Assembly (NCBI GenBank): GCA_902613185.1
Contig: CACMGP010000001.1
Span: 496,001-560,000 of the forward strand
Length of the DNA: 64,000 bases
DNA from: an uncultured Alphaproteobacteria bacterium
GTDB taxonomy: Bacteria > Pseudomonadota > Alphaproteobacteria > HIMB59
Reading direction: 5' to 3'
A model generated the notes under the pieces. The model had not been told where the DNA came from, ran no database searches, and saw only the letters and a list, made by a program, of their open reading frames with translations. Both the position numbers and the translations under genes were made by a program. This document shows positions 8,994 through 18,467 of the stretch, in pieces; the first letter of the stretch is position 1, and each line of letters starts with the position of its first letter.

Positions 8994-10016
8994 ATGTCTG
9001 AAATAAAAATTCAAATTAAAAACTTATATAAAATTTTTGGTAAAAGCCCAAAGTCTGCGTTAGAGCAAGTAAAAGATGGCGTCAATAAAGATGAACTCTT
9101 AGAAAAACACAATCATGTTCTGGGTCTAAAAGATATAAATTTGGATATTAAAGAAAAATCAATTCAAGTTGTAATGGGCCTTTCTGGTTCAGGTAAGTCT
9201 ACATTAATAAGACATATAAATAGATTAATAGAACCTACAGACGGCAGTGTAGTTGTTGATGGTGATGATGTTTTAAAAATGAATGATGAAAATTTAAGAA
9301 ATTTCAGAAGAACAAAAACTGCTATGGTATTTCAGCGTTTTGCTTTGTTGCCTCATAAGACGGTTTTAGAAAATACAATGTTTGGCCTTCATATTCAAAA
9401 TATTGATGAAAAAGAGGCAAATACTAGGGCACGAAGATGGATTGATCGTGTTGGATTATCTGGATATGAGGAAAAATATCCTCAACATTTATCTGGTGGC
9501 ATGCAGCAACGTGTTGGACTCGCAAGAGCTCTTACTAACGATGGGGAGATCTTGCTTATGGATGAAGCTTTTAGCGCTCTTGACCCTCTAATTAGAAAAG
9601 ATATGCAAGATATTTTGTTGGAGCTACAAGATGAACTTCATAAAACAGTTGTATTTATTACTCATGACCTAGATGAAGCTTTAAAAATTGGGGATCGTAT
9701 TGCAATATTAAAAGATGGTATTATGGATCAAGAAGGTATCCCCGCAGATATTTTATTAAGTCCAAAGACACAATATGTAAAAGATTTTGTTGAGGACGTA
9801 AACAGAGCTAGGGTAATTAAAGCAAAACACATTATGTCAGAATTAAATGGACAAGACAGAGATAACGCTATGTTTGTAGATCAAGATGATTTTATCGATA
9901 GATTTATTGATAAAGTTATTTCTGATAAGCCAAATTGCCTGATAGTCAAAAATAAAAATAATGACGAAATAGGCTATTTATCAACAAAAAGACTCTCTGA
10001 AATACTAAAAAGATAG
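8994..10016 (+). CDS. proV: Glycine betaine/proline-type ABC transporter ATPase
   Basis: ATP-hydrolysing subunit of an osmolyte importer. The 340-residue protein has Walker [10 protein letters not shown] near residue 63, Q-loop VFQRFALLPHKTV, signature LSGGMQQR, Walker B EILLMDEAFSALDP and the H-loop ITHD. The N-terminal IKNLYKIFGKSPKSALEQVKDG and the spacing to Walker A are typical of ProV/OpuAA rather than other importers. After the ATPase core comes a degenerate CBS-like regulatory tail of about 70 residues, shorter than in E. coli ProV. It is the first gene of a long same-strand run; proX follows after 114 bases. Confidence 0.93.
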   Translation: MSEIKIQIKNLYKIFGKSPKSALEQVKDGVNKDELLEKHNHVLGLKDINLDIKEKSIQVVMGLSGSGKSTLIRHINRLIEPTDGSVVVDGDDVLKMNDENLRNFRRTKTAMVFQRFALLPHKTVLENTMFGLHIQNIDEKEANTRARRWIDRVGLSGYEEKYPQHLSGGMQQRVGLARALTNDGEILLMDEAFSALDPLIRKDMQDILLELQDELHKTVVFITHDLDEALKIGDRIAILKDGIMDQEGIPADILLSPKTQYVKDFVEDVNRARVIKAKHIMSELNGQDRDNAMFVDQDDFIDRFIDKVISDKPNCLIVKNKNNDEIGYLSTKRLSEILKR

Positions 10017-10130
10017 CTAAATAAACAATTTTCTATTTTTTGCGGCATTTAGCTTCCATTTTTTAGGATTTTTTCACTGTTAATGCAATATAGGAATGTT
10101 ATCCTAGACTTTTATATCAGGGAGGATGTA

Positions 10131-11120
10131 ATGAACTCTATTAAGAAAATACTTCTGAGCTCAGTTCTATTATTTGGAATTAACTCAGTTGCAAAAGCTG
10201 ATTGTGGGACAATCACAATCGCTGAAATGAACTGGGCATCCGCAGAAATGTTTGCCCACGTTGATAAATTAATATTAGAAAATGCTTATGGGTGTGATGT
10301 TGAGCTTGTTCCTGGAGATACAATGCCAACAGCTACATCAATGATGGAAAAAGGCGAGCCAGATATTGCTCCTGAATTATGGATCAATTCTGTTCGTATT
10401 GCTTTAGACGCAGCAACTGCTGAAGGAAGACTTCACTATGCTGCTGAAGTTTTATCAGACACTGGTGAAGAAGGATGGTGGATACCTCAGTATTTAGCTG
10501 ATGCAAACCCTGATATCGTCACAGTTGAAGATGCTTTAGCAAGACCTGATTTATTTCCTCACCCAGAAGGAGATGGCGCTGCTCTTTATACCTGTCCATC
10601 AGGTTGGAACTGCCAAATAAGTACTGGTAACCTATTCCAAGCTTACGACGGTGAAGGCAAAGGGTTTAGCCTTGTAGATCCTGGCTCAGGTGGAGCTCTT
10701 GCTGGTTCTATTGCTGAAGCTTATGAAAAAGGTGAAGGATGGTTAGGCTATTACTGGGCACCTACAGCTATTTTAGGTAAGTATCCAATGAAGAAGTTAG
10801 ACTTTGGTGTACCTCATGACTTTGACGAGTGGAGCACTTGTACCTCTCAAGAGGGTTGTGCTGATCCACAAAAAAACTCATGGGTTGTTTCATCAGTGTT
10901 TACTGTAGTTACAGATAACTTTAAAAACTCATCTGGTCCAGGAATGGATTATATCAAAAAGAGAGCATTACCTAACTCAGTTGTAAACGAACTTTTAGCA
11001 TGGAAAGATGATAATCAAGCAACTGGTGAAGATACTGCTATCTATTTCCTAGAAAACTACGGTGAGTGGAAAAATTGGGTTCCATTTGATGTTCAATTAG
11101 ACATCTTAAACGCATTATAA
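10131..11120 (+). CDS. proX: Glycine betaine-type ABC transporter substrate-binding protein
   Basis: Periplasmic binding protein of the OpuAC family, 329 residues. I start at ATG 10131, which follows a strong GGGAGG ribosome site and gives a clean signal peptide (KKILLSSVLLFGINSVAKA, then DCGT); the frame is open further upstream. EMNWASAEM near the mature N-terminus, PELWINSV, EGWWIPQYLAD and YYWAPTAIL supply aromatic residues of the kind that box quaternary ammonium groups. The ligand could be glycine betaine, choline, DMSP or similar. The dmdA gene downstream makes sulfonium ligands worth considering. Confidence 0.9.
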   Translation: MNSIKKILLSSVLLFGINSVAKADCGTITIAEMNWASAEMFAHVDKLILENAYGCDVELVPGDTMPTATSMMEKGEPDIAPELWINSVRIALDAATAEGRLHYAAEVLSDTGEEGWWIPQYLADANPDIVTVEDALARPDLFPHPEGDGAALYTCPSGWNCQISTGNLFQAYDGEGKGFSLVDPGSGGALAGSIAEAYEKGEGWLGYYWAPTAILGKYPMKKLDFGVPHDFDEWSTCTSQEGCADPQKNSWVVSSVFTVVTDNFKNSSGPGMDYIKKRALPNSVVNELLAWKDDNQATGEDTAIYFLENYGEWKNWVPFDVQLDILNAL

Positions 11121-11135
11121 AAATCATTTTATTTG

Positions 11136-11157
11136 GAAGTGGGCTTTTGCCCACTTC
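11136..11157 (+). terminator. Hairpin between proX and proW
   Basis: A perfect 9-base-pair stem, GAAGTGGGC and GCCCACTTC around a TTTT loop, begins 15 bases after the proX stop. The following TTAATTTT is a weak T-run. In binding-protein operons such a hairpin often stabilises the upstream mRNA or partly terminates, giving more binding protein than permease. That role is inferred from position. Confidence 0.65.
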
Positions 11158-11179
11158 TTAATTTTAAGCCACTTATTTT

Positions 11180-12073
11180 ATGGAAAAATTTTTCCTATCT
11201 GAATTTCCTGAGTTAAGTCGAGAAACACTTCGATTTATTAAAAAGGGTTTTGATGCATCCTATAGAGCTTTTTCCAGAGAATATGGCGATACTATTGAAG
11301 CTGTATTTGATCCAGTTTTGTATTTTTTAGTCTGGTTTGAAAAATTATTACAAAATTCACCTTGGCCCATAGTTCTAATTTGTTTTTTAGCTGTAATTTA
11401 TTTTGGCAGTAGAAAGATATCAGTGACTATAGGTTCATTATTTGCTTTTCTCTTAATTGGAATTTTTGGAATGTGGGAAGACACCATGTCAACTGTAAGT
11501 ATTATTGGTGTTTGCACTCTGCTATCTATAGGAATTGGTATTCCAGTTGGGGTGCTGATGGCAAAATCAGAGCGCGCTCAAAGGATCTGCACTCCAATTT
11601 TGGACATTATGCAAACGATGCCAAGCTTTGTGTACTTAATTCCTGTCGTTATGTTATTAGGTATTGGCAAAATACCTGGCTTGTTAGCCGTAGTAATTTA
11701 TGCCATACCGCCAATTATAAGACTCACTAACTTAGGAATAAGAGAAGTCGATAGCGAAGTGTTAGAAGCAGCAGATGCTTTTGGGGCCAACCCTAGACAA
11801 AAATTATTTCAAATTCAGCTGCCATTAGCTCTTCCAACAATTTTTGCTGGAATCAACCAAACTATCATGATGGCACTAGCGATGGTTGTTATTGCGTCTA
11901 TGATTGGTGTCAAAGGCCTTGGACAACCAGTTTTAAAAGCCATTACAAACCAATATTTTGCAATGGGTCTTTTTAATGGTTTGGCAATTGTAGCTTTAGC
12001 TATTATTTTTGACAGAGTTTCACAATCGTTTGGCCACCGTATTCAACAACATAGAAGTGGTGCTAGAGAGTAA
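11180..12073 (+). CDS. proW: Glycine betaine/proline-type ABC transporter permease
   Basis: Membrane subunit of the importer encoded with proV and proX. The 297-residue protein has an N-terminal cytoplasmic stretch of about 55 residues, then six or seven helices. The coupling motif is EAADAFGANPRQKLFQIQLPLALPTI near residue 195. LMQT-like DIMQTMPSFVYLIPVVMLLGIGKIPG and the end of the core (IGVKGLGQPVLKA) are typical of ProW/OpuAB. It starts at ATG 11180, 59 bases after proX and past the hairpin. Confidence 0.92.
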   Translation: MEKFFLSEFPELSRETLRFIKKGFDASYRAFSREYGDTIEAVFDPVLYFLVWFEKLLQNSPWPIVLICFLAVIYFGSRKISVTIGSLFAFLLIGIFGMWEDTMSTVSIIGVCTLLSIGIGIPVGVLMAKSERAQRICTPILDIMQTMPSFVYLIPVVMLLGIGKIPGLLAVVIYAIPPIIRLTNLGIREVDSEVLEAADAFGANPRQKLFQIQLPLALPTIFAGINQTIMMALAMVVIASMIGVKGLGQPVLKAITNQYFAMGLFNGLAIVALAIIFDRVSQSFGHRIQQHRSGARE

Positions 12074-12130
12074 ATTAAAAATCAAATTATTACCTAATAA
12101 AATCTTTAAATTTTTTATTAATTAATCAAT

Positions 12131-13189
12131 ATGTTAAATAAAAGTCTTTTAGGCGTATTTTTTGTAACTTTTATATATCTACTAGCAATATTTCTAAAAC
12201 AACCCTTAGAATATGTCTTTAATTTACAGTTTTTACCATTAAGTCTTTTATCACTTATTTTGGGAATATTTTTTTTTAATATATTCTCTTTATCCTCTGA
12301 TATTGTTGAAGGTCGAGAATTTATTAAGAAAAATATACTTCAATTAGCAATTATCTTATTAGGTATAAAGATAAGTTTGGCTCAGTTATGGAGAGTCAGT
12401 ATTGAGTCGATATTTGTAATAATATTAACAATATTATTGATTTTTCTTACATACATTTTGATAAAAAAAATTTGTCCAACTCAAAAAGACTTGTCAAAAT
12501 TATTGGCAATTGGCACGTCCATTTGTGGTGTCACAGCTATTTTAGCCTCCTCATCAATTTTAAAATCAAAAGATCAAGATGTGGCTGTGGCTGTGCTAGT
12601 AGTAGTTTTATGGGGAAGTTTAGCTGTATTTACATATCCTTTTTTTGTTGAGTTATTTTTTTTAACAGACATAGCTAAAGGTATTTTTTTAGGTGTTAGT
12701 ATTCATGACACAAGTCAAGTTTTAGCAGCTGCCATGGTTCATAATGATTTACATCCAAATCAAAAAACTTTAGAAATTGCTACGATAACAAAAATAATAA
12801 GAAATTTATTTCTTTTAGCTTTGATACCAATATTGATAGCATTTAATAAAAGTTCAAAAAATAATAAAAATAAAAGTAAATCAGTCTTTATTAAAATATT
12901 TAATTCAATTCCACTTTTTGTAATAGGTTTTATTTTATTTGTAACCTTTCGCTCAATTATGGACATATACTTTTTTGATAATGAGAAATGGATGCAATTT
13001 TTAGTAATGCTTGAAGAAATAATTTCAATTCTATTTGGCCTAGCTCTTACAGCTCTAGGAGCCTCTATTGATTTAAGAAAAATCTTTAATCAGGGTTATG
13101 CTGCTCTTTTAATTGGTATGACTTTTAGCTTTGTATCCCTTGTATCAGTAACTTTCTTAATATTTATTTTAGGGCTAAATGTCTTATAG
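12131..13189 (+). CDS. YeiH-family (UPF0324) putative sulfate/anion exporter
   Basis: A 352-residue membrane protein with about ten helices. It has the family motifs GTSICGVTAILA near residue 136, VVLWGSLAVFTYPF, GVSIHDTSQVLAAAM near 195 and a C-terminal GLALTALGASIDLRK. The family is annotated as putative sulfate exporter, and related proteins export organic sulfur compounds or sulfite. Experimental assignment is thin. Between betaine uptake genes and dmdA, a role in clearing a sulfur product is plausible but inferred. It lies 57 bases after proW. Confidence 0.8.
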   Translation: MLNKSLLGVFFVTFIYLLAIFLKQPLEYVFNLQFLPLSLLSLILGIFFFNIFSLSSDIVEGREFIKKNILQLAIILLGIKISLAQLWRVSIESIFVIILTILLIFLTYILIKKICPTQKDLSKLLAIGTSICGVTAILASSSILKSKDQDVAVAVLVVVLWGSLAVFTYPFFVELFFLTDIAKGIFLGVSIHDTSQVLAAAMVHNDLHPNQKTLEIATITKIIRNLFLLALIPILIAFNKSSKNNKNKSKSVFIKIFNSIPLFVIGFILFVTFRSIMDIYFFDNEKWMQFLVMLEEIISILFGLALTALGASIDLRKIFNQGYAALLIGMTFSFVSLVSVTFLIFILGLNVL

Positions 13190-13241
13190 AAATAATATCA
13201 TTGCTTTGTAATAAGAATACATATTAACTACACTAAATTTT

Positions 13242-14345
13242 ATGACCCACTTAATTGCTAAAAGTGCGAGACTTCGCTCTACTCCTTACACCAAAAGAAT
13301 TGAGGAATATGGTGTACAATCATACACAGTTTATAATCACATGCTTTTACCTGCATCTTTTAAAGGTATAGAGGAAGATAGTAGGCACCTAAAAAAAAAT
13401 GTTCAACTTTGGGATGTATCTGGCGAGAGACAAGTTCAAATTCACGGACCTGATGCAGCTAAACTCACACAATTAATTACGTGTAGAGATTTATCTGAAG
13501 CAAAAGATTATCTTTGCTATTACGCTCCAATTATTGATAACAAAGGTAAAATCATTAATGATCCACTGATAATGAAAGTTGGTGAAAAAACATGGTGGCT
13601 ATCAATAGCAGACACAGATGTGCTTCTTTATGCAAAAGGAATTGCAATTGGTATGAACCTTGACGTTGAGATATCTGAACCCAATGTTAACATTCTTGCT
13701 GTTCAGGGACCAAAATCATTTGATCTTATGTCAAGAGTTTTTAAAGACATAGATAAGTTAAAATTTTTCAATTTCAAAAGATTTGATTTTCAAAATCATA
13801 AATTTTTAATTGCAAGATCAGGTTGGTCCAAACAAGGTGGATTTGAAATCTATGTAGATGATGATGAAATCGGCCTAAATCTTTATGATACCCTTATGTC
13901 TAAAGGTGAAGATTTGGATGTAAGACCAGGTTGTCCAAATTTAATTGAAAGGATAGAGGGTGGTCTATTATCATTTGGGAATGATATGAATATGAATGAT
14001 ACCCCACTAGAATGTGGTTTAGGTTCTTTTGTTTCTTTCAACCACAAAATAGATTATTTAGGAAAAGCTGAGTTAGAAAAACAGCACAAAGAGGGAGTCA
14101 AAAGATCTTTAGTTGGTTTAAAACTTAAACTAGATAAAATTGAAATCACAAAAGCGTTACCTTTAAAAATAGGCACTGACATAATAGGTGAGCTAAGAGC
14201 TGCATGCTTCAGTCCAGATTTTGGCTGTTGTCTTGGAATAGCGATGGTGCAAACCAAATATCAAAGCTTAGAAGAAAAACAGACACTTCTTGTTGATGGT
14301 GAAGAGGTTGAGTCTGTAATGACAAACCTGCCATTTAACAAATAA
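13242..14345 (+). CDS. dmdA: Dimethylsulfoniopropionate demethylase (GcvT fold)
   Basis: Transfers a methyl group from DMSP to tetrahydrofolate, giving methylmercaptopropionate; it is the key step of marine DMSP demethylation. The 367-residue protein closely resembles SAR11 DmdA as I recall it. Shared features are the N-terminal RSTPYTKRIEEYGVQSYTVYN and HMLLPASF, WDVSGERQVQIHGPDAAKL, WWLSIADTDVLL, LAVQGPK, ARSGWSKQGGFEIYV and PGCPNLIERIEGGLLSFGND. Plain GcvT and dimethylglycine dehydrogenases lack this combination. The membrane neighbours fit import of its substrate. No dmdB, dmdC or dmdD lies in the window, so later steps are encoded elsewhere or absent. Confidence 0.85.
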   Translation: MTHLIAKSARLRSTPYTKRIEEYGVQSYTVYNHMLLPASFKGIEEDSRHLKKNVQLWDVSGERQVQIHGPDAAKLTQLITCRDLSEAKDYLCYYAPIIDNKGKIINDPLIMKVGEKTWWLSIADTDVLLYAKGIAIGMNLDVEISEPNVNILAVQGPKSFDLMSRVFKDIDKLKFFNFKRFDFQNHKFLIARSGWSKQGGFEIYVDDDEIGLNLYDTLMSKGEDLDVRPGCPNLIERIEGGLLSFGNDMNMNDTPLECGLGSFVSFNHKIDYLGKAELEKQHKEGVKRSLVGLKLKLDKIEITKALPLKIGTDIIGELRAACFSPDFGCCLGIAMVQTKYQSLEEKQTLLVDGEEVESVMTNLPFNK

Positions 14346-14383
14346 TAATTGCTTTTTTAAACTAAAAGTTTAAAAAATCTCGG

Positions 14384-15637
14384 GTGTTAAATATCGTTTA
14401 TAGCTCTTGGGCTCTATTTACAGGTTTTGGATTCATTATGCTTGCACACTCTTTGCAAGGAACCTTGTTAAATATTAATGCTGTATTATTTAATTTTTCC
14501 GATTTTGAAATTGGATATGTCTTTACAGGTTATTTTGTAGGCTATTTAGCTAGCTCATATATTTGTCCGAAAATTATCAAAAATGTAGGACATATAAGAG
14601 TATTTGCAGCATTTGCATCCATTGCTTCTATTACAATTTTATTTCATTGGATTTATGTTCACCCGTTTTTCTGGTTTTTTTTAAGATTACTTACAGGGTT
14701 TTCATTAGCAGCAATATATATCGTTTGTGAAAGTTGGCTAAATGATCGTGCTGATAATCAAACTAGAGGGAAGCTTATTGGGTTTTACATGGTGATATTA
14801 TACTTCTCAACTAGTGGGGGTGGTTTGTTGATTAATATAAAAGAAACTACTGAGGCACACTTATATATTCTAACATCTTTATTAATTTCTATTGCTTTGG
14901 TTCCAATTTTACTTACTAAAAAATCGGCACCAGAATTTTCTACACCTAAGTTCATATCTTTAAAAGATCTATATAGAAATTCTCCCATGTCTTTTATCGG
15001 CTCTTTTGGCATTGGTATGATTTATGGAGCATCATTTGGATTAATTGCAGTCTTTGGAGCTAAATTAGGCTTAAGTATTTTTCAAATATCTATACTTGTT
15101 TTTGTAAATACATTCATTGGCGCTTTATTTCAATATCCGGTTGGCAAATTATCGGATATGTTTGATAGAAGAATAATTTTACTGATATTAAATATCATTG
15201 CCTTGTTTTCTTCTATTTGTGTAATTATTTTTGGATCTATTTCATTTAATATTCTTTTATTATTTGTTGGGATACATTCAGCTGTATCTCTTCCTTATTA
15301 TGCAGTTGTTATTTCTCATCTAAATGATTTTTTAGAAAAGAACGAGGTTGTTTCTGCTAGCTCAACTCTGACATTAGTTAATGCATTAGGTTTAGTTTTA
15401 GGGCCAATTATCGTCTCTGGATTTATGTCTTATTTAGATGCTTATGGATTATTTTATTATTGTGCAATAGTTTATGTTTTTATAGCACTATTCACCTATC
15501 AAAGAATTAGGATTGGAAGAACTAGTGAAATTTATAATGAAAATACACCATCAATTATTGTGCCTCGCACCACTTCCGCAATAGGAATTCAAACTGCTAC
15601 TGAACAAATGATTAGTAAAATTGATGAAAAAGAGTAA
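14384..15637 (+). CDS. MFS transporter, YcaD-like
   Basis: A 417-residue protein with twelve hydrophobic segments. It begins at a GTG (14384) that puts the first helix at the very N-terminus. The central region around residues 185-200 is cytoplasmic, and a conserved motif-A-like loop appears in the second half (GKLSDMFDRRIIL near residue 257). CESWLNDRADNQTRGKLIG near residue 115 is typical of the YcaD-like group, often annotated as sugar or unknown transporters. Its place between dmdA and ridA suggests import or export of a metabolite of this locus, but the substrate is unknown. Confidence 0.8.
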   Translation: MLNIVYSSWALFTGFGFIMLAHSLQGTLLNINAVLFNFSDFEIGYVFTGYFVGYLASSYICPKIIKNVGHIRVFAAFASIASITILFHWIYVHPFFWFFLRLLTGFSLAAIYIVCESWLNDRADNQTRGKLIGFYMVILYFSTSGGGLLINIKETTEAHLYILTSLLISIALVPILLTKKSAPEFSTPKFISLKDLYRNSPMSFIGSFGIGMIYGASFGLIAVFGAKLGLSIFQISILVFVNTFIGALFQYPVGKLSDMFDRRIILLILNIIALFSSICVIIFGSISFNILLLFVGIHSAVSLPYYAVVISHLNDFLEKNEVVSASSTLTLVNALGLVLGPIIVSGFMSYLDAYGLFYYCAIVYVFIALFTYQRIRIGRTSEIYNENTPSIIVPRTTSAIGIQTATEQMISKIDEKE

Positions 15638-15648
15638 TTTTTTAATTG

Positions 15649-16110
15649 ATGGATTTCGAAGCCAAGATAGCTGAGTTAGGTCTTTTAATACCAAAACCTG
15701 CCAAACCTGCAGGGAGTTACAAACCCTGCGTTATTGTTGATAATTTTGCATATATATCTGGTCAAGGCCCATTACTTGAGGATGGGTCTTTTGCAAAAGG
15801 AAAAGTTGGGGCTGATGTTGATTTAGAGACAGCTCAAAATCACGCTAAGTTATGTGGATTAGCTATCTTATCTGCTTTAAAAAATGAAATAGGATCAATT
15901 AATAAAGTAGATCAATTAATTAAACTGACAGGTTTTGTAAATTGTATTGAGAGCTTCACACAGCAACCCTTAGTAATCAATGGTTGCTCAAATATGATGA
16001 AAGATATTTTTGGCGAGACTGGTGTTCATGCTCGAGCTGCAGTAGGAGTTAATTCTTTGCCTCTAGGTTTTACAGTAGAAATTGAGGCAATGTTTAAAAT
16101 CAAGAGTTAA
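15649..16110 (+). CDS. RidA/YjgF-family protein
   Basis: A 153-residue protein of the RidA superfamily, whose best-known member hydrolyses reactive enamine/imine intermediates. ISGQGPL near residue 39, the central helix with LCGLAILSALKNEIGSINKVDQLIKLTGFVNC, and the C-terminal HARAAVGVNSLPLGFTVEIEA are visible; the Arg in HARAAVG is the usual carboxylate-binding residue. It is somewhat longer than canonical RidA (about 128) and belongs to the Rid subgroup often encoded next to catabolic genes. I use the ATG at 15649; a TTG lies one codon upstream. Confidence 0.85.
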   Translation: MDFEAKIAELGLLIPKPAKPAGSYKPCVIVDNFAYISGQGPLLEDGSFAKGKVGADVDLETAQNHAKLCGLAILSALKNEIGSINKVDQLIKLTGFVNCIESFTQQPLVINGCSNMMKDIFGETGVHARAAVGVNSLPLGFTVEIEAMFKIKS

Positions 16111-16175
16111 TTTCTTAATTGACAATTAATTAAATTTAGCAAAATATTAATTTATTAATGCTTGGAGTTTGAATT

Positions 16176-17300
16176 ATGGATTTTCATTTTGAAAACAATA
16201 CTATTAGGATAATCCATCAAAATAAGACATTTCATTTGCATCCCATTTGGTTAAGAGAAAGACTACCGGGTGAAAAGTATTTTGATTTAGATACTAATCA
16301 AAGATTATATGAGCCATCCTCTATTAACTTAAAGTTGAAAATTGAAAATTGTAAATTAACAGATAACAAACTTGATGTTGAATTTAATGATGGGGCACAA
16401 GGTCAATATCGTTTAGATGATCTTTTAATTGAAATGGATGAAGAAAAAAATAAAAGAGGGCCCTTACCAAAAAGAATTTTATGGAATTCTCAACTAGAAG
16501 ATTTACCTGAAGCTATTTTTGAAGTAGATATGATTGAACAAGAATCTATGTATAATCTTCTTATAGATTTTTATAAATATGGATTTGTTATTATTAAAAA
16601 TGTACCAACTGAAAGTAAGTATATTTTAAAATTTGTAAATTCAATCGGCCCAGTTAAAGTCACAAATTTTGGAGAATTTTTTGATGTAATGTCTAAGCCA
16701 AATCCAAATGACTTAGCCTATAAACCTATTGCATTACCGCCTCATACTGATAACCCTTACAGAAAACCAGAAGCACCCGGGATACAGTTTTTGCATTGTT
16801 TAAAAAATGAAGTGAGTGGTGGTTTTTCTACTCTTGTTGATGGTTTTTCAGTTGCAGAATATATCAAATTAAATGAGCCAGAAGCATTTGAGTCTTTAAC
16901 CAAAACAAATTTACGTTACCGATTTGAAGATAAAGATATAGTTTTAGAGAATTGGGGAGAGTTAATTGAATTAGACAAGGATGGCGACTATAAGCAAGTC
17001 AGGTATAGTACTAGAGTTGATTATGTGCCACCTTTAGAAAATGAAAAATTAGAGAGTTTTTACAAAGCGAGAAAATTATTAGGAGATTTATACACTTCAT
17101 CTGACTTCGAGATAAAATTTAAGCTCTCACCAGGAGATGTCATGATGTTTGATAACCACAGACTTCTCCATGGAAGAACCTCTTATGACTCGAGTGAGGG
17201 AGCTAGACATTTACAAGGTTGTTATCTAGAATTTGATTCAACTGATGGAAAATTGAGACATTTACATAAAAAATATCATCTAAGTGGGACAAATTTATGA
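16176..17300 (+). CDS. TauD-like Fe(II)/2-oxoglutarate dioxygenase, BBOX/TmpA-type
   Basis: A 374-residue oxygenase with an N-terminal DUF971-like domain (HPIWLRERLPGEKYF near residue 22) and a TauD domain from about 115. Iron ligands are H190 and D192 in LPPHTDNPYR, with distal H332 in RLLHGRT; R344 in GARHLQGCY would bind 2-oxoglutarate. This is the layout of gamma-butyrobetaine hydroxylase, but the N-terminal zinc cysteines of that enzyme are replaced here (LPGEKY). It overlaps the HD-protein gene by 4 bases, as expected for TmpA, which hydroxylates 2-trimethylaminoethylphosphonate. TmpA is my preferred reading; carnitine synthesis is the alternative. Confidence 0.65.
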   Translation: MDFHFENNTIRIIHQNKTFHLHPIWLRERLPGEKYFDLDTNQRLYEPSSINLKLKIENCKLTDNKLDVEFNDGAQGQYRLDDLLIEMDEEKNKRGPLPKRILWNSQLEDLPEAIFEVDMIEQESMYNLLIDFYKYGFVIIKNVPTESKYILKFVNSIGPVKVTNFGEFFDVMSKPNPNDLAYKPIALPPHTDNPYRKPEAPGIQFLHCLKNEVSGGFSTLVDGFSVAEYIKLNEPEAFESLTKTNLRYRFEDKDIVLENWGELIELDKDGDYKQVRYSTRVDYVPPLENEKLESFYKARKLLGDLYTSSDFEIKFKLSPGDVMMFDNHRLLHGRTSYDSSEGARHLQGCYLEFDSTDGKLRHLHKKYHLSGTNL

Positions 17301-17902
17301 CTGAGAAAAATGTAAAATTTAAACATATGAAAGATGGAGATAAAGAAGATTATCTATTGCTCCAAAAATATGAGGAAAAGTATGTTTCTTTGACATATGA
17401 AAGAATAATAGAAGAGCTTACAAGACAAGGAAAAAATACTATGGAGGGTTACAAGATAACAAGATTAGATCATGGCCTACAATCAGCTACTAGAGCTTAT
17501 AATGATGGAGCTGATATTGATTGGATTGTTGGTGCCTTACTTCATGATATTGGAGATGGGCTTGCCCCTCAAAATCACGATAGGTTTTCTGCTGAAGTTG
17601 TAAGACCTTATGTAAGAGATGAAATAACATGGGTGATTGAGCATCATGGAATTTTTCAAATGATATACTATGCTCATCATTATGGATGGGATAAAAATGC
17701 TAGAGATAAATTTAAAGATAATATTTATTTCCAAACTTGCGCAGATTTCTGTGAAAGATGGGATCAAAAATCTTTTGATCCCGAATATGAAAATAAAGAT
17801 CTAGATTTTTTTAAACCCTTGATTAAAGAGGTATTTAGCAGACCTCCCTACAAAGATGAATACATCAAAAAAAATGAAGTTTTAGGTTTACCAAAAGTTT
17901 AA
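17297..17902 (+). CDS. HD-domain protein, candidate diiron oxygenase (TmpB-like)
   Basis: A 201-residue protein carrying the six ligands expected of mixed-valent diiron HD oxygenases (MIOX, PhnZ, TmpB): H59, the H83-D84 pair, H94, H117 and D156. H59 to H83 is 24 residues, as in PhnZ. The final Asp lies in ERWDQKS, like the RWDE of PhnZ. E50 and Y52 sit just before H59, where PhnZ has its substrate-sensing Tyr/Glu, though in different order and spacing. Known TmpB cleaves the hydroxylated phosphonate made by TmpA to glycine betaine and phosphate. An ordinary HD phosphohydrolase remains possible. It starts inside the dioxygenase stop (ATGA), so the two are translationally coupled. Confidence 0.6.
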   Translation: MTEKNVKFKHMKDGDKEDYLLLQKYEEKYVSLTYERIIEELTRQGKNTMEGYKITRLDHGLQSATRAYNDGADIDWIVGALLHDIGDGLAPQNHDRFSAEVVRPYVRDEITWVIEHHGIFQMIYYAHHYGWDKNARDKFKDNIYFQTCADFCERWDQKSFDPEYENKDLDFFKPLIKEVFSRPPYKDEYIKKNEVLGLPKV

Positions 17903-17942
17903 ATCTATAAATCCAGATAATTTAAAGTAAGTATATATTGTC

Positions 17943-18467
17943 ATGAGAATTTTCTTGATAACTTTGAGTATTTTATTCACAAGCATAGGGAGCATTATGG
18001 CGAAAAACTTATATAACTTTAGTATTCAAGATATTGATGGAAATACAATTAATCTTGATAAATTTAAAGGTAAACCCATTCTTCTTGTTAATACGGCTAG
18101 TAGATGTGGTTTCACAAAACAATACGCTAATCTATCCAATCTTCATCGTGAGTATTTTAAAAAGAACTTAGTCATTATTGGAACTCCTTCTAATAGTTTT
18201 CATCAAGAGCTGAGTAATAATGAGGAAGTTAAAGAATTTTGTTTAGTTAATTATGAAACCAAATTCATTATATCAGAAATTATTAGTGTTGTTGGTGAAA
18301 ATGCCCATCCGATATACAGTTGGATGACATCAGAGTATAACGAAACTCCGAAATGGAATTTTTATAAGTATCTTTTTGATGGAGAGGGTCAATTAGTTAA
18401 AAGTTGGTCCTCTATGACCAAACCTGACAGTTCGAAAATTACAAGTTTAATTGATGATTTAATATAG
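17943..18467 (+). CDS. Glutathione peroxidase-like thiol peroxidase, exported
   Basis: A 174-residue member of the GPx family, the last gene before a terminator. MRIFLITLSILFTSIGSIMA at the N-terminus is a signal peptide, so it is probably periplasmic. The peroxidatic Cys is in NTASRCGFT near residue 57, the catalytic Trp in WNFYKYLF. The usual PCNQFGGQE block has diverged to TPSNSFHQE, keeping Gln. The second resolving Cys of thioredoxin-dependent forms is not obvious, so the electron donor is uncertain. Its role is removal of hydroperoxides. Confidence 0.85.
   Translation: MRIFLITLSILFTSIGSIMAKNLYNFSIQDIDGNTINLDKFKGKPILLVNTASRCGFTKQYANLSNLHREYFKKNLVIIGTPSNSFHQELSNNEEVKEFCLVNYETKFIISEIISVVGENAHPIYSWMTSEYNETPKWNFYKYLFDGEGQLVKSWSSMTKPDSSKITSLIDDLI

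Follow-up and report, generated by a model that had tools for sequence, protein, structure and literature searches.

An overlapping TauD-type dioxygenase and HD-domain gene pair in a dimethylsulfoniopropionate gene context, a candidate two-step oxidative module

Within a 64,000-nucleotide stretch from an uncultured Alphaproteobacteria bacterium of the HIMB59 lineage (contig CACMGP010000001.1, positions 496,001 to 560,000; hereafter the window), a gene for a TauD-fold 2-oxoglutarate (2OG) dioxygenase overlaps a gene for an HD-domain protein by four bases (ATGA), an overlap that an earlier note on this DNA had reported and that the open reading frame coordinates bear out. We give an even chance to the reading that the pair is a two-step oxidative module, similar to TmpA-TmpB, that acts on a zwitterionic carboxylate of the dimethylsulfoniopropionate (DMSP) or betaine type by hydroxylation and then oxidative decarboxylation. 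Sequence families, six metal ligands, a predicted PhnZ-like fold, altered substrate residues, a DMSP gene context and an exchange of partner genes are what we directly observe, and from geometry and gene context we infer the substrate, regiochemistry, products, metal and redox state. The earlier note had taken the pair for a TmpA-TmpB-like system that converts trimethylaminoethylphosphonate; the mode of action, a 2OG oxygenase coupled to a PhnZ-fold HD oxygenase, is supported, and the phosphonate substrate is not.

All 30 same-genus loci (L001-L030) have the dioxygenase gene followed by this HD gene, with the overlap, and a TmpA-like TauD gene lies directly upstream of a family HD gene in seven loci from other lineages (L127, L151, L152, L155, L157, L160 and L163). 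This recurrence argues that the pairing is not due to chance. The neighbourhood samples were non-random, one being the best 80 of at least 483 loci and another 40 places taken from alphaproteobacterial matches, and genes in GC-rich loci were called by longest frame, such that genes may be missed or invented.

On the basis of its sequence and predicted structure, the HD protein is a probable mixed-valent diiron oxygenase. It matches the Pfam HD domain (27.1 bits, cut-off 22), and each of the six ligands that the earlier note had assigned (H59, H83, D84, H94, H117 and D156) is kept in all 124 aligned family members. Sequence matches in the PDB at E <= 0.001 are to TmpB (6npa) and PhnZ, over the core only (38-47 residues). 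When an AlphaFold2 model (52 sequences; mean predicted local distance difference test score 91.8) was compared with the PDB using Foldseek, all ten matches at E <= 1e-3 were PhnZ (seven chains) or TmpB (three chains), followed by a tRNA processing enzyme chain (E 0.097) and human myo-inositol oxygenase (MIOX; E 0.71); HD hydrolases, including small alarmone hydrolases, appeared above E 1. Because the model matches PhnZ and TmpB only, a tandem mechanism of 2OG oxygenase and HD oxygenase is likely. MIOX, the next oxygenase in this list, is likewise an HD mixed-valent diiron oxygenase and cleaves a C-C bond, but it is a larger protein and is absent from the sequence matches of the window HD protein at E <= 1. 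Excerpts of two papers describe HD mixed-valent oxygenases as acting on inositol or phosphonates (PMC8177086, PMC10574752).

The window protein shares the HD fold and six ligands with PhnZ, its best fold match, yet differs from the PhnY-PhnZ system in having a TauD-type partner and in several features of its own. It scores 39.7 bits with the PhnZ-type phosphonate HD model TIGR03276 (cut-off 214.6) and 26.6 bits with the TmpB model NF049941 (cut-off 300). As controls we used four loci in which a dioxygenase was found beside a PhnZ-like HD protein (L208, L209, L218 and L219). The HD proteins of L208 (357.6) and L209 (351.8) pass the TmpB cut-off, that of L218 passes TIGR03276 (215.0) and misses TmpB (168.7), and that of L219 misses both (TmpB 207.1, TIGR03276 196.9), with both models matched along their length. 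The window's own genome has no other TIGR03276 match and no PhnZ over the cut-off. PhnZ and TmpB carry a YxxE loop before the first His (excerpts of PMC8177086); the motif occurs in none of the 124 family members, in which the E position is never E and is Y in 119. The window protein has MEGY at this place, and the doubt about a changed loop that had been raised over E50/Y52 was justified. YxxE is present in L208, L209, L219 and the PhnZ-like L040; in L218 the E is in place and the Y is one residue nearer to it. The His that follows the HD-x-G motif of PhnZ-like proteins is replaced by Asp (D87) in 123 of the 124.

The dioxygenase (Pfam TauD, 141.8 bits, cut-off 27) has H190, D192 and H332 at the iron-ligand positions of the alignment, as previously assigned. 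Its nearest PDB relatives are TmpA (6npb, E 5e-46) and human gamma-butyrobetaine dioxygenase (BBOX; 4bg1, E 2e-43), which also represent its best and second-best NCBIfam families; it stays under the curated cut-off of 400 with the TmpA model NF049936 (336.6 bits) and under that of 414.75 with the BBOX model TIGR02409 (257.2 bits). All four control dioxygenases pass the TmpA cut-off (L208 596.4, L209 577.5, L218 470.1, L219 437.5). The TmpA-type L208 also just passes the BBOX cut-off (417.0), and the BBOX model alone therefore does not separate TmpA from BBOX. With BBOX the window protein shares its length, its fold and aromatic residues at the three cage positions that we looked at. The cysteines after the WLR motif of human BBOX, presumably its zinc cysteines, are absent from the aligned window protein, in agreement with the earlier description of a BBOX layout lacking N-terminal zinc cysteines.

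TmpA contacts phosphonate with N187, N287 and R288, and human BBOX contacts phosphinate with N191 and N293 (excerpts of PMC9296572). In the window dioxygenase N187 is replaced by D (D179) and N287 by T while R288 is kept, such that two of the three TmpA phosphonate ligands are changed, and the carboxylate-side BBOX residues N191 and N293 are likewise D and T. Among 22 aligned dioxygenases, D occupies the N187 position in all nine that are paired with the HD family, in two with an enolase-like partner, in two unpaired ones and in L216, a neighbour of carnitine genes; TmpA, BBOX, all four controls (each paired with a PhnZ-like HD protein), L213 and L207 have N there. A maximum-likelihood tree of the 22 unites the 14 sequences with D in one clade (support 99/96) beside the TmpA clade (90/80), and BBOX, L213, L216 and L207 sit on long branches in unsure places. 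As judged from its sequence, the dioxygenase is outside the TmpA clade, and it does not lie inside a BBOX clade. The window pair thus resembles TmpA-TmpB of Leisingera caerulea in being a gene pair for a 2OG oxygenase and an HD diiron oxygenase, with 6npb and 6npa as the nearest PDB sequence relatives, and departs from it in clade, in the D for N187 and T for N287, in missing both cut-offs, in lacking YxxE, in an HD protein that is shorter between the ligands and in a DMSP context.

That context is a run of ten co-directional genes (8994-18467, plus strand, gaps of at most 66 bases) that encode, in order, a transporter ATPase, a binding protein, a permease, a YeiH-like protein, DmdA, a major facilitator superfamily (MFS) transporter, a Rid protein, the dioxygenase, the HD protein and a glutathione peroxidase-like protein (Gpx). 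The only PDB match of the binding protein (10083-11120) at E <= 0.001 is 7yle (E 5e-73), which is RnDmpX with DMSP (excerpts of PMC10030565). Of the eight residues given there for the DMSP pocket (W35, T64, W84, E113, W152, A153, Y200 and W202), the binding protein keeps seven predicted equivalents, including Y200, as read by eye from the alignment; A153 is N. In the strains studied, according to the same excerpts, dmpXWV are not colocalised with known DMSP catabolic genes (PMC10030565). In the window (8994-14345), a DmpXWV-like transporter is encoded close upstream of DmdA.

A second association with DMSP metabolism emerges from the HD tree, which comprises 124 of 169 HD loci (L039, L042, L044, L045 and L158 were omitted, together with 40 same-genus copies that were nearly identical; the outgroup is given as L039-L041). 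The window HD clade is sister (Shimodaira-Hasegawa-like approximate likelihood-ratio support 98) to five HD proteins encoded directly after the DMSP lyase DddP (L060-L064), at spacings from a 4-base overlap to 20 bases. All five DddP proteins pass their model, whose cut-off is 600 (L060 829.3, L061 816.7, L062 830.4, L063 813.7, L064 834.1). With DmdA in the window operon, two sister HD clades are thus associated with two different DMSP-consuming enzymes. To our knowledge, neither known DMSP pathway (demethylation or cleavage) contains a 2OG oxygenase or an HD oxygenase, the two enzyme types of the window pair. Among the open-licence papers listed by our literature searches, no title or abstract describes such a 2OG-HD pair in DMSP metabolism, and the main texts of two genomic papers on the order (PMC10734472 and PMC10308909) mention neither DMSP nor dmdA. 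BurB was considered as a known HD enzyme of DMSP metabolism and ruled out, as it is a SET-domain methyltransferase. At L060-L064, which come from marine alphaproteobacteria, DddP, the HD protein and an alpha/beta-hydrolase (of hormone-sensitive-lipase type in L064) form a three-gene unit.

The HD family is widespread: at E <= 1e-24 it has matches in 109 of 385 alphaproteobacterial genomes, and a threshold of E <= 1e-3 brings the count to 128 by adding 19 weak partial matches. We scanned 55 upstream reading frames out of 76 found at 125 loci, which include one same-genus fragment (L045); the other 21 were near copies or spurious-looking frames. Twenty of the 55 encode a 2OG oxygenase directly upstream of the HD gene (12 PhyH, seven TauD and one DIOX_N/2OG-FeII_Oxy). 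Such repeated coupling, across lineages, to oxygenases of three non-homologous kinds would be expected from the examples of PhnY-PhnZ and TmpA-TmpB if the HD protein is an oxygenase whose substrate must first be hydroxylated.

The nature of that hydroxylated substrate is suggested by an exchange of partner genes. We searched 52 genomes of the window's genus for each gene and found the dioxygenase in 41, of which 31 also carry the HD gene and 10 an enolase-like gene, with none having both and none neither (an HD match in G032 and a dioxygenase match in G002 carry a stop codon). The substituting partner is a 382-aa protein of the mandelate racemase/enolase superfamily whose nearest PDB entry is 4jhm (E 8.5e-73; function not named there). 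A gap of 7 to 30 bases separates its gene from the last sense codon of the dioxygenase, and in the eight loci checked the gene occupies the slot between the dioxygenase and Gpx genes, so that in these relatives Gpx follows either partner. The dioxygenase itself is 94-97% identical to the window's in swap genomes G021, G040 and G051, and 97% in L222, and a dioxygenase tree with eight of the ten swap genomes (G029 twice) requires at least four partner changes. None of the 11 same-genus genomes lacking the dioxygenase has the HD gene; three of them carry an enolase-like gene, which is intact in G015, broken in G038 and distantly related (28%) in G023. As the genomes are incomplete, not all absences are real, but the perfect split among the 41 is. 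Gpx changes along with the partner, at 67-78% identity to the window's Gpx instead of 82-100%.

Enolase-superfamily enzymes begin by taking a proton next to a carboxylate held by Mg2+. Since both partners share one dioxygenase product and the enolase type needs a carboxylate, this product is most simply a hydroxy carboxylate and not a phosphonate. The dioxygenase product is probably a hydroxy acid. An alpha-hydroxy acid would offer both partners the same C-H, as a hydrogen atom to the diiron site and as a proton to the enolase-type site.

A mechanism can be proposed on this footing. TmpA hydroxylates two bonds from the nitrogen, as does BBOX; DMSP and beta-alanine betaine are carboxylate analogues of trimethylaminoethylphosphonate, and in them the same position is alpha to the carboxylate. 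The 2OG dioxygenase would first place a hydroxyl group on the carbon two bonds away from the onium atom, the position used by TmpA and BBOX, to give the 2-hydroxy acid of DMSP or beta-alanine betaine. The HD diiron oxygenase would then chelate the alpha-hydroxy carboxylate, remove the carbinol hydrogen with O2 and cleave the bond to the carboxylate (R-CHOH-COO- + O2 -> R-COO- + HCO3-). This would be a carboxylate version of PhnZ chemistry (R-CHOH-PO3 -> R-COO- + phosphate) and, like it, a four-electron oxidation by one O2. From DMSP the products would be dimethylsulfonioacetate and CO2.

A further step, doubtful but possible, is that the dioxygenase opens a third, hydroxylating route of DMSP breakdown through 2-hydroxy-DMSP, finished by either of two unrelated and exchangeable enzymes, the HD protein (dimethylsulfonioacetate and CO2) or, in other strains, the enolase-type enzyme (dimethyl sulfide and pyruvate). 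The latter would take the same alpha hydrogen as a proton, expel dimethyl sulfide and give pyruvate. Action of the pair on DMSP or a similar carboxylic acid would in itself be new to ocean sulfur and carbon cycling, and with DMSP as the substrate a marine bacterium would split this compound in a manner not yet described, with dimethyl sulfide as a possible product in some strains. More generally, carboxylates appear to be the substrates of the HD family. Published figures for marine phnZ abundance range from <1% to ~20% (excerpts of PMC10574752). If the family does act on carboxylates, some of the PhnZ-like genes that ocean surveys have counted as phosphonate degraders may have another function; a PhnZ-like HD family without YxxE could inflate some phnZ counts and is a possible cause of the spread in these estimates.

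Several points weigh against a module for DMSP-type carboxylates. We know of no enzyme of either clade that has been assayed, and 85 of the 124 HD tree rows have no recognised partner directly upstream. DmdA and a proposed second DMSP-consuming route stand in one operon without explanation, R288, the third TmpA phosphonate ligand, is kept, and the enolase-like partner is assigned at the level of the superfamily. In the sister family f2 of the same order, an HD relative (46-50% identity) lies inside a carnitine cluster, with BKACE in all nine loci (L031-L038 and L043) and, by eye, a carnitine-dehydrogenase-like protein in seven; proteins were named by models at L033 only. The dioxygenase does not adjoin this HD relative, and a 51% dioxygenase relative is encoded elsewhere in G052. 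In L151 and L152, of one genus, a distant TauD-HD pair lies between PhoR-like (317.5 and 314.0, cut-off 334.2) and PstS-like (156.1 and 158.8, cut-off 206.6) genes, all under their cut-offs, and a divergent regulator in L151 is nearest the choline-sulfate type (292.5, cut-off 324.8). A pair on a Pseudomonas plasmid adjoins a choline-binding protein (457.7, cut-off 379.05), a choline dehydrogenase and an aldehyde dehydrogenase, and a Rhizobium HD relative has neighbours 55-68% identical to those three proteins. Such neighbours suggest quaternary amines as much as sulfonium compounds, and the substrate could therefore be a betaine. An 837-aa coenzyme A transferase encoded next to the Pseudomonas pair could not be identified as DddD. 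The f2 carnitine cluster also holds a thioesterase and a CurA-like reductase.

The f2 cluster favours a rather unlikely alternative, in which the pair makes and cleaves a beta-hydroxy acid: the dioxygenase would make carnitine from gamma-butyrobetaine (or gonyol from a DMSP homologue), and the HD protein would cut C2-C3 to release glycine betaine (or DMSP) and a two-carbon acid. BBOX is the second-best NCBIfam family of the dioxygenase, and L216, a long-branched member of the same dioxygenase clade, has carnitine genes as neighbours. The window dioxygenase nevertheless reaches only 257.2 bits for BBOX and has N191, N293 and the zinc cysteines replaced or absent, and the window genome carries, on another contig, a separate BBOX-like protein (316.3, cut-off 414.75) that adjoins a carnitine-dehydrogenase-like one (353.5, cut-off 414). 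Cleavage by an HD protein beside an unfunctionalised CH2 also has no precedent known to us. Carnitine cleavage as a general role was rejected, since in the sample only the f2 clade and L216 have carnitine genes around them and a BBOX-like protein is encoded elsewhere in the window genome.

That the pair is a true TmpA-TmpB, converting 2-trimethylaminoethylphosphonate or a close phosphonate to glycine betaine and phosphate, is unlikely. In its favour, the dioxygenase has its best match in both NCBIfam and the PDB with TmpA, the HD fold matches are PhnZ and TmpB, R288 is kept, and L151 and L152 have the pair between PhoR-like and PstS-like genes. The window pair nonetheless misses every phosphonate model, where 4/4 control dioxygenases pass TmpA and 3/4 control HD proteins pass TmpB or TIGR03276 (L219 neither). 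Together with the replaced N187 and N287, a YxxE missing from 124/124 HD proteins, the DMSP neighbours and the enolase-type partner in 10/41 genomes, this speaks against the substrate proposed in the earlier note. Pho regulation of the window pair was rejected as well: by a crude consensus, no Pho-box-like site with more than 8 of 14 matches lies upstream of it. By the same consensus, the good sites of L151 and L152 (12 and 11 of 14) lie between the HD and PstS-like genes, with 9 and 8 matches before the dioxygenase.

In another alternative, which we consider quite unlikely, the HD protein alone turns 4-dimethylsulfonio-2-hydroxybutyrate (DMSHB) into DMSP for DmdA or DddP, and the dioxygenase has some other role. 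In its favour, DMSHB is an alpha-hydroxy acid, and inspection of four DddP-HD loci by eye showed no obvious 2OG gene beside the HD gene. According to excerpts of PMC11306096, the enzyme that decarboxylates DMSHB in Labrenzia and Rhizobium has yet to be identified, and Ruegeria pomeroyi DSS-3 is without this activity; Roseibium aggregatum IAM 12614 carries a family HD protein, which would suit this gap. We compared the occurrence of the HD protein (Planktotalea L108 as query, E <= 1e-30) and DsyB (Roseibium aggregatum L132 as query, PDB match 7wdq, a 4-methylthio-2-hydroxybutyrate methyltransferase; E <= 1e-60) in 395 genomes of one family. DsyB is present in 28 and the HD protein in 129, with five having both (odds ratio 0.43, P 0.10). 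As only five of the 28 DsyB-positive genomes carry the HD protein, the DsyB route does not generally use it, and we rejected it as the missing decarboxylase of DsyB bacteria. A lone decarboxylase would also leave the coupling of HD proteins to 2OG oxygenases unaccounted for.

Very unlikely is a phosphatase-like hydrolase that merely shares the fold, a reading for which one plasmid record naming a relative phosphohydrolase (another says inositol oxygenase family) and the six-ligand site of the hydrolase YqeK (excerpts of PMC8177086) can be cited, but which the fold matches at E <= 1e-3 (PhnZ and TmpB, no hydrolase), a placement outside the phosphohydrolases and the repeated coupling to three kinds of 2OG oxygenase speak against.

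Table 1. Features of the window and related loci; positions are those of the window unless a locus is given.
Feature	Position	Strand	Basis or remark
Betaine/choline/DMSP-type ATP-binding cassette (ABC) transporter ATP-binding subunit, DmpV-like	8994..10016	+	NCBIfam proV subfamily 337.8 bits, cut-off 326.6
Substrate-binding protein, DmpX-like (DMSP)	10083..11120	+	PDB match 7yle
Permease subunit, DmpW-like	11180..12073	+	Pfam BPD_transp_1; ProW model 267.9, under cut-off 439
YeiH-family membrane protein	12131..13189	+	PF03601 185.8 bits
DMSP demethylase DmdA	13242..14345	+	NF009133 484.2 bits, cut-off 410 passed
MFS transporter	14384..15637	+	PF07690
Rid/YjgF-family protein	15646..16110	+	PF14588 and PF01042
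TauD-fold 2-oxoglutarate dioxygenase	16176..17300	+	374 aa, ATG start; clade beside TmpA
D179 codon, where TmpA (N187) and human BBOX (N191) have an anion-binding Asn	16710..16712	+	alignments
HD-domain protein, probable mixed-valent diiron oxygenase, uncharacterised family	17297..17902	+	201 aa, ATG start
MEGY, place of the YxxE loop in PhnZ and TmpB	17441..17452	+	alignments
Glutathione peroxidase-like protein (Gpx)	17943..18467	+	PF00255; closes the co-directional run
Enolase-superfamily gene replacing HD after the dioxygenase	L212:11365-12513, also L220-L227		
BBOX-like dioxygenase and carnitine-dehydrogenase-like protein	L213:7019-9134		window genome, another contig; both under cut-offs

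In the loci sampled, the neighbours of standalone HD genes have no common theme. In L143 and L145, from 1.2-1.3 Mb genomes of a further family, a standalone HD gene comes just after an amidophosphoribosyltransferase-like gene, and one of these genomes (G305) encodes a 48% dioxygenase relative elsewhere.

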